From positions 101,478 through 165,477 of the forward strand of contig JAGLBD010000002.1 of NCBI GenBank assembly GCA_018260425.1: 64,000 nt of DNA, in the 5' to 3' direction. The stretch comes from Pseudogulbenkiania sp. Its GTDB lineage: Bacteria > Pseudomonadota > Gammaproteobacteria > Burkholderiales > Chromobacteriaceae. The notes beneath the pieces were generated by a model that saw only the letters and a program-made list of their open reading frames with translations, was not told where the DNA came from and did not search any database. Of this stretch, positions 41,940 through 43,950 are shown piece after piece (within the stretch, counting starts at the first letter, position 1; every line of letters begins with the position of its first letter). The position numbers and the translations under genes are program-made.

Positions 41940-41984
41940 AATTTTTACATGTCACGCACAAGGCATAACGTGTAGCAGTCCTCC

Positions 41985-42345
41985 GATGTGCACGGCAATC
42001 TGATTCACCCGGTCGTCGGCTATCACGCTCAACACCTGGCGCAGAGAGGCTTCCGGATTGAACCCATTCAGTTTGACCGAACAGATCAGGCTATACATGG
42101 CGGCGGCACTCGGAACAGCGCACGAACAGCATGCGCTGCAACTTGGAGATCAACAGCTGGGGCGATCTATTTCGTGGGCACAGGAAGAGCTGGTTGCCTG
42201 CAGCTGTTCGATTTCGTGAGATCTAGTGGAAACGCTCTCGTGCAGTTGCTGCACCTCCGCCGACATAGACAAGAGCAACGCCTTGAGGGCGGCTTGGTGG
42301 AGTACCACCGACAATGGCCACCTGATGGCTGGTTGTGATGAAATG
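41985..42345 (-). pseudogene. IS66-family transposase (TnpC) remnant
   Basis: On the minus strand the N-terminal part shows ALKALLLSMSAEVQQLHE, like the start of IS66 TnpC. After a gap, the C-terminal part gives MYSLICSVKLNGFNPEASLR then VLSVIADDRVNQIAV, the family's conserved closing segment. The whole catalytic middle is missing. It is a deleted, frame-broken scar between rarA and serS. Confidence 0.75.
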
Positions 42346-42492
42346 TATTGCAAAGTACAGCACTTGCTACTATAATTGAGTCAACAAGATGTTTTAAGAA
42401 GTCCGAGAGCGAGTGCAAGACGGACTTGCTGCCGAAAGGCTCCTGTAAAAAGGACGAAAGAGAATCTCGCAAGACAGACCAGTCTCTGTCAA

Positions 42493-42516
42493 GAAAAGGC
42501 CCTACGGGGCCTTTTT
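42493..42516. terminator. Bidirectional terminator-like hairpin
   Basis: AAAAGGCCC and GGGCCTTTTT arms around a short loop, just downstream of the orphan gene on the minus strand. Confidence 0.8.
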
Positions 42517-42519
42517 CTT

Positions 42520-43092
42520 TTACACAACACCCGCAGCTATCTTCTTTTTCTTCTTGGCAGGTTTCTTCCCTTTTGGCTTTGGCGGGAAAGCACCTGAAAT
42601 CTCGGCCAGCAGGCCCTTGAACCGCCAGTTCTGCGCGTTCACTTTCGCGACAAGGGGTTTGAGGTAAGCACTCTTCACAAACATTCTGACCGCCGGGTAC
42701 TGAACTGAACGATCCTTCTCCAAATCAAAGAAGATGGAGTAGTCATGCTTGTTGTCAGGTCCCCCCAATGAGATGAGCGCAACGTAGGTCAGGCTTTTCT
42801 CAGCATGGTAGATCATGCCATCAAGCAACTCAGAAAACACGACATAGGGCAACTGTAGTGAGCATTCGTATCGCAACGCATTAAATGCTCGGTGCTCCCC
42901 CTTGTACATGTATCGGTGGTGCTCTCGATGGAGCTCCGATTTGAACTCTTCTGTAAAACAGTGACAGCCAAACGTCACATGAAGCGTAATACTTACAGAC
43001 GGATTACCCACTGTCACCACATGGGTTTTGGAATCCAGATGATGAAATGTGTAGGTTGTACCTTCAAACTGTTTCTGCGGGAATTGGCTCAT
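42520..43092 (-). CDS. Orphan protein of unknown function, coupled to a recombinase remnant
   Basis: A 190-residue cytoplasmic protein without signal peptide or membrane helix. It has an unusual Cys/His stretch (VTFGCHCFTEEF), a His-rich segment (ELHREHHRYMYKGEHRAF) and a lysine-rich C-terminal tail (PKGKKPAKKKKKIAAG) suited to nucleic-acid binding. Its ATG overlaps the stop of a tyrosine recombinase remnant as TAATG, so it was once translated together with that recombinase. Base composition is lower in G+C than the neighbours. I do not recognise the family; a mobile-element accessory gene is likely. Confidence 0.62.
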   Translation of the reverse strand: MSQFPQKQFEGTTYTFHHLDSKTHVVTVGNPSVSITLHVTFGCHCFTEEFKSELHREHHRYMYKGEHRAFNALRYECSLQLPYVVFSELLDGMIYHAEKSLTYVALISLGGPDNKHDYSIFFDLEKDRSVQYPAVRMFVKSAYLKPLVAKVNAQNWRFKGLLAEISGAFPPKPKGKKPAKKKKKIAAGVV

Positions 43093-43240
43093 TAAATAAC
43101 CTTGGCAACAATGGCACCCAAGTTCATCGGATCACACTCCACCAGCTTGCGCACCGTTTTGATGCTGGTATGCCCCAGTAGTTCCTGGATAGCCTCAGCT
43201 CGCCGCCACCCGCCTCCCCCCAATTGCAGGACTTCGACCC
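43092..43240 (-). pseudogene. Tyrosine recombinase C-terminal remnant
   Basis: The minus strand reads VLQLGGGGWRRAEAIQELLGH then TSIKTVRKLVECDPMNLGAI before TAA. The LLGHTSIKT block is the conserved box-II end of phage-type integrases, but the catalytic upstream half is missing or decayed. The stop overlaps the ATG of the orphan gene, showing the two were an operon. Confidence 0.72.
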
Positions 43241-43319
43241 GACAGCAACAGCACACTATTTAACTACGATTGGTTTTGTACCAGCTAACCATACTCTCGT
43301 CTTCAAGTGCATACGCCCC

Positions 43320-43560
43320 ATGCACTACGCACTACTCCCGCTGATTGGCTGCGCCAATACAGCAGGATTTTCGTGGCTCATCACGGCGAAACTTACACCG
43401 CCCCCCACCTCGGCCAGTTCCTGACCGGTGGCGCTACCTGTTAACGCCCAATTCAACATCACCCTCGCCGCGTTCTCATCGCGGCTGCACGCAGCACCAC
43501 ACTCACAGTGATGGGTGCGTTCAGAGAGGGGCTAACAGTATGGATTTGCCAGGTCTGGCT
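43320..43560 (-). pseudogene. IS200/IS605 TnpB (OrfB) C-terminal remnant
   Basis: The minus strand encodes LSERTHHCECGAACSRDENA then ARVMLNWALTGSATGQELAE, matching the C-terminal zinc-ribbon and RDxNAA motif of TnpB proteins. An in-frame stop and absence of the RuvC-like core show it is dead. Plus-strand ORFs in the track over this area are shadows. Confidence 0.75.
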
Positions 43561-43607
43561 GGTGAAATGCGAATACATAGCCCATATGGGATTGTCCTGT
43601 TATGTAG

Positions 43608-43629
43608 ACTTATGTTCGATAACATAAGT
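43608..43629. repeat. 22-bp perfect palindrome with a second imperfect copy
   Basis: Arms ACTTATGTT and AACATAAGT flank a CGAT centre. An imperfect second dyad, with arms AGTTATG and CATAAGT, follows at 43627-43648. Spacing and arms resemble recombinase binding sites around a short core, and a recombinase remnant lies 400 bases away. It could be a recombination site or an operator. Confidence 0.5.
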
Positions 43630-43950
43630 TATGTTTCACGGCATAAGTACACATAACTCAACTTTTCAAGCGAGAGTGACTCGTTTCAACGTACCGAGTG
43701 ACTCTTGCTCATCTAGCTTATAGGTCAGGAGCTTCGCCTCTCGCACTGTAGTTCATGGCACCTATCCCGGAACGAGCCCCGATGGTGCCGATGTTCAAGA
43801 GGCTTACCGTTTCTTCGGAGGCCCATGACGACCGGCACGGGCAGAACTGACCGCACAGGCAATGATCCAGGTCAGGCGCCCCTGAACCCGTATTCAGCGT
43901 ATAATGGCCGTGACGTCTGTCTATAGACCCTGAATAAGCCGGGAATTACC

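Follow-up and report, generated by a model that had tools for sequence, protein, structure and literature searches.

A YjaZ-like gene and a structured small RNA share an insertion between rarA and serS in Pseudogulbenkiania and may form a mobile RNA-protein module

The protein encoded by yjaZ (b3989) of E. coli K-12 is named a stationary-phase growth adaptation protein in NCBIfam. The gene lies 1 nt from sroH, and the two are convergent, with the structured RNA and its terminator immediately 3' of yjaZ. They are annotated separately in E. coli. A literature search of incomplete coverage, in which one query was swamped by an unrelated abbreviation, found no publication joining YjaZ with SroH or SraL and no mechanism for SroH. 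SraL, also called RyjA, adjoins soxR in K-12 and has no yjaZ neighbour. It is reported to base-pair with the rho leader mRNA in Salmonella (PMC6582626). Other systems on mobile elements also pair a protein with a structured RNA. Phage-borne RNA mimics suppress the ToxIN system (PMC3475682), and AbiF is neutralised through direct binding by its ncRNA, RCd22 (PMC12373285).

A homologous protein gene with a structured RNA immediately 3' of it, convergent and with a terminator, occurs in a stretch of 64,000 nucleotides from Pseudogulbenkiania sp. (contig JAGLBD010000002.1), hereafter the window. Here yjaZ-like gene and RNA lie within an insertion in a single species, whereas yjaZ-sroH belongs to the resident E. 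coli chromosome. The initial annotation of the window held that the usual lolA-rarA-serS order is broken by about 2 kb of inserted DNA, and the congeners bear out the extra DNA between rarA and serS. Five sister species have both genes close, with gaps from a few bp to about 600 bp (roughly 600 bp in one), and in some the start of serS immediately follows the stop of rarA. In the nearest congener (G039), 112 bp separate the homologous flanks, as against about 2 kb here. The scar is a real insertion, found in this genome alone among the sister species compared. Its reading as a composite insertion scar holding an intact foreign gene is likewise supported. Remnants of IS66 and TnpB, as proposed there, are credible, though both matches are weak and fall under the Pfam cut-offs. 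The remnant of a tyrosine recombinase was recovered as described, as a tail of 35 residues 53% identical to the C-terminus of plasmid integrases of about 219 aa. The claim that the orphan gene alone has stayed intact was wrong, since a small RNA gene beside it is intact too.

Table 1. Features of the rarA-serS interval (window positions) and RNA core copies on phage contigs (contig positions)
Feature	Position	Strand	Evidence or remark
rarA, left flank	40632-41939	+	
IS66 C-terminal remnant	41952-42098	-	PF13817 (IS66_C), E=2.7e-5, under curated cut-off
Small RNA gene	42348-42521	+	promoter, pseudoknotted three-hairpin core, terminator
Predicted sigma-70 promoter of RNA	42348-42376	+	TTGCAA-17-TATAAT, 10/12
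Predicted transcript	about 42383-42521	+	own promoter and own terminator
RNA core, 79 nt	42395-42473	+	model R1, 66.6 bits
P1	42399-42405/42421-42427	+	
P2	42431-42433/42438-42440	+	
P3	42441-42444/42451-42454	+	
Pseudoknot	42409-42413/42466-42470	+	GCGAG with CTCGC
3' hairpin P4; intrinsic terminator	42473-42490; 42494-42521	+	sequence, alignment; fold z=-3.1
Orphan gene, 190 aa, YjaZ-like	42520-43092	-	NCBIfam YjaZ, E=3e-4 alone
Tyrosine-recombinase-like C-terminal remnant	43092-43199	-	stop overlaps orphan ATG (TAATG)
Probable TnpB C-terminal remnant	43325-43531	-	PF07282 (TnpB zinc domain), E=0.0034, under cut-off
serS, right flank	43951-45237	+	
Phage core copy, L037	1861-1946		
Phage core copy, L039	5916-6001		
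Phage core copy, L041	10150-10238		

The intact frame of 190 codons stood up to re-examination. It is present in single copy in this genome, and no copy was found in 60 other genomes of the host's taxonomic family. Relatives 52-57% identical occur in Janthinobacterium and Variovorax, and relatives of about 30% identity occur on plasmids of Pseudomonas, Vibrio, Delftia and others. The orphan scores 20.9 bits against the NCBIfam YjaZ model NF007263, short of its curated cut-off of 324 bits, which marks a distant homologue and not an equivalog. All eight aligned relatives (8/8) match the same model, the best at 2.8e-11, and the homology spans most of the chain and is common to the orphan's relatives. 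In a search of a small set, K-12 YjaZ hit L002 (E=3e-7) as well as the orphan (E=1e-5). Judged by these alignments, the orphan and E. coli YjaZ are distantly homologous. The NF007263 search gave no match in 14 control genomes, whose identities are unstated, although K-12 MG1655 carries yjaZ. The orphan had no match in Pfam, PHROGs or PADLOC, none in a protein search of a phage collection, and nothing credible in the PDB by sequence.

Invariant positions of the family include H18-L19, H44-C45-F46, R68, R74, S78, Y118, F121-F122 and S141-A142. The Cys/His patch pointed out in the initial annotation is therefore real, with HCF invariant in 16/16 aligned relatives, but the Lys-rich tail singled out with it is unconserved. 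Decay of the frame in close relatives would have refuted the reading of the initial annotation; the frames are intact. The protein family is evidently under purifying selection, because dN/dS is about 0.02-0.2 in close pairs of relatives, a range that applies to those pairs and not to the window gene, whose synonymous sites are saturated.

The small RNA gene has a predicted promoter, and a score of 10 or more is reached in about 0.4% of 65-nt stretches. RNA promoters of 10-11/12 are also found in L003, L004, L042 and L045. The T run of the terminator meets the convergent 3' end of the orphan gene. Across the nine core sequences of the window group, 96% of cells are paired and 7 pairs have changed on both sides, while slid controls for the pairing count gave 24-42% paired. 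Within this group the pseudoknot shows no variation. Rfam found only tRNAs in the whole window, and the small RNA matches neither the SroH model, for which it is too diverged, nor the SraL model. The RNA is thus previously unannotated and outside the Rfam families. In L003, L006, L007 and L020, the -35 box ahead of the RNA falls within a short palindrome of the form TTGACGnnnnCGTCAA, which hints that several of the RNA promoters carry a repressor operator.

The RNA is conserved beside relatives of the orphan, as seen by blastn against related loci. It lies 28-80 nt from the 3' end of the gene in 7/7 close relatives (the window, L002, L003, L004, L042, L043 and L045). A scan of IMG/VR with a degenerate core pattern, blind to the protein, yielded six true copies. 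L042, L043 and L045 were recognised by the RNA pattern alone, and each carries a relative of the orphan, 46-58% identical, directly adjoining the RNA. Seven other pattern matches (L035, L036, L038, L040, L044, L051 and L052) were discarded on inspection. The RNA model gave four matches of 24-28 bits in 369 genomes of the class; these were dismissed as chance, since the alignments disrupt their stem pairing and one of them lies within GC-rich, coding-like sequence. The RNA search of the phage collection gave no match.

At distant loci, conservation takes in the gene together with its 3' flank but not the 5' flanks (L007 compared with L009/L015, and the pairs L008/L014, L006/L016, L020/L024 and L021/L022). 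Therefore, gene and 3' flank move together. Known RNAs emerge from these flanks. Only the flank RNA of L059 reaches the Rfam sroH gathering score (RF00372, 97.9 bits), and those of L008 and L014, a Vibrio plasmid and contig, are sraL (RF01408, 50.3 and 46.7 bits) and adjoin YjaZ-like genes; all three scores exceed the curated cut-offs. In the Pseudomonas group, 99% of cells are paired and 7 pairs are changed on both sides, one of them in the pseudoknot. A bridge to the window group is the L062 RNA (24.2 bits, E=1.9e-5), which has GCGGG/CCCGC where that group has GCGAG/CUCGC. By eye, complementary segments stand at matching positions elsewhere (CCGGA/UCCGG, CCAGA/UCUGG, and CCGG/CCGG in RyjA and L016), and SraL/RyjA resembles the window RNA in P1, P2, P3 and a loop-to-3' complement. 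A descriptor of P1, P2, P3 and pseudoknot recovered one shared architecture in groups A, B and E, with 0-5/300 shuffles as good. It was marginal for C_L016 (22/300), and for several distant groups it was non-significant or preferred a different arrangement. A common fold across all RNA groups is not proven. The RNAs of L005, L023, L061 and L063 were identified by inspection only, and L060 has no visible RNA.

The RNA also occurs alone inside tRNA arrays of three phage contigs, touching tRNA genes. L037 and L039 look like one phage, so the solitary RNA is represented by two phage lineages. These copies are the core only, without the 3' hairpin and terminator of the module. No YjaZ-like gene lies within the three contigs, which may be fragments.

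The scar holds both parts intact, and we consider it an even call whether they form a mobile module in which a dedicated RNA binds and restrains the YjaZ-like protein. Linkage of gene and RNA, the RNA fold, a promoter and terminator recognisable in the sequence, purifying selection in the protein family and kinship with yjaZ-sroH are shown and underlie this reading. The RNA would be transcribed from its own promoter and ended at its own terminator. Its folded core (P1, P2, P3 and the loop-to-3' pseudoknot) would bind the YjaZ-like protein directly and curb it in the manner of an RNA antitoxin. Phages with the RNA alone in tRNA arrays may deploy it as a decoy against a host protein. A protein-binding RNA would fit because a compact pseudoknotted core is linked to one protein family and occurs alone in phages. 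ToxIN and AbiF/RCd22 resemble the module in coupling a protein to a structured RNA carried by mobile elements, but no sequence or fold match to either is shown. In type III toxin-antitoxin systems, a tandem-repeat RNA lies upstream of the toxin, whereas the window RNA is a single copy, 3' of the gene and often convergent. We take ToxIN and AbiF/RCd22 as precedents for how such a module could work and do not assign it to either system. Two AlphaFold models of fair quality (pLDDT 80 and 84) gave no PDB fold match by Foldseek at E<=0.001, so neither an RNase fold nor a toxin fold is demonstrated for the orphan family. E. coli deletions of sroH are viable. Their viability makes a simple strong toxin less likely, unless the loss is offset by SraL or by low expression of YjaZ.

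The proposed restraint of the protein by its RNA is also weakened because SraL reportedly acts by a different mechanism, the pairing with rho mRNA (PMC6582626). The window RNA could similarly be a trans-acting base-pairing sRNA, which the YjaZ-like protein would simply accompany as an RNA chaperone or as a stress protein of independent function. The solitary position of K-12 sraL beside soxR and the NCBIfam name of YjaZ agree with this explanation, which we nevertheless think unlikely. The conserved part of the RNA is a pseudoknotted core, not an exposed seed. RNA and gene stay together across very different hosts and replicons, where mRNA targets would differ, and the copies in tRNA arrays keep the core without the 3' hairpin and terminator.

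A cis-acting role, as a convergent antisense or terminator element controlling the neighbouring gene, is improbable. Gene and RNA do converge in the window, in L002 and L043, in K-12 and in those distant groups that were examined, and the terminator abuts the gene end. However, they are codirectional in L003, L004, L042 and L045, and phages carry the RNA alone. The orientation thus varies among the window's close relatives, unlike the convergent pair of K-12, and for this reason antisense control was rejected as the conserved role.

An RNA of this architecture travels with YjaZ-type genes across hosts, chromosomes, plasmids and phages, and phages also have it by itself among their tRNAs. These findings turn YjaZ and SroH into one testable RNA-protein system and suggest that SroH and SraL share an origin. 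A broader proposal, possible but doubtful, is that a single ancient and mobile family of RNA-controlled effectors unites YjaZ-like proteins with SroH/SraL-type RNAs and serves in plasmid, prophage and phage conflict. The protein fold would then be unlike anything solved, and SraL and the RNAs of phage tRNA arrays would be freed or captured halves, acting as decoys. If this were true, two E. coli sRNAs of textbook standing would descend from RNA antitoxins.

That the orphan is a cargo gene of the recombinase element and the RNA incidental is very improbable: the start of the orphan does overlap the stop of the recombinase tail, and a second such tail overlaps its downstream gene as TGATG, but relatives of the orphan lack this recombinase as a neighbour, many unrelated genes follow this recombinase family, and linkage to the RNA is far more consistent. 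The overlap itself was described correctly in the initial annotation. Its placing of the orphan in the recombinase's operon found no support as a conserved association, as the relatives are preceded by unrelated genes, among them a ribbon-helix-helix-like frame in L008 and a KfrA-like gene in L003. Downstream of the same tail elsewhere, we found not orphan relatives but RhuM-Fic (contig C36 of this genome) and, on plasmids, VapBC, RelE and small ORFs. The comparison of loci indicates that the conserved unit is gene plus RNA, not the upstream recombinase.

The second recombinase copy, on contig C36 of G000 (L027 4908-6522), is frameshifted, with a tail 81% identical to that in the window, and an intact RhuM-Fic gene follows it with the overlapping start. 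The family of the tail, tyrosine-recombinase-like proteins of about 219 aa, occurs on plasmids of Burkholderia and others (L028-L033; L027 5884-6016). It looks catalytically inactive, because six copies have other residues where the alignment places the first catalytic Arg, the HxxR His and the nucleophilic Tyr. Genes of differing kinds follow members of this family, often with a start that overlaps the recombinase stop codon.
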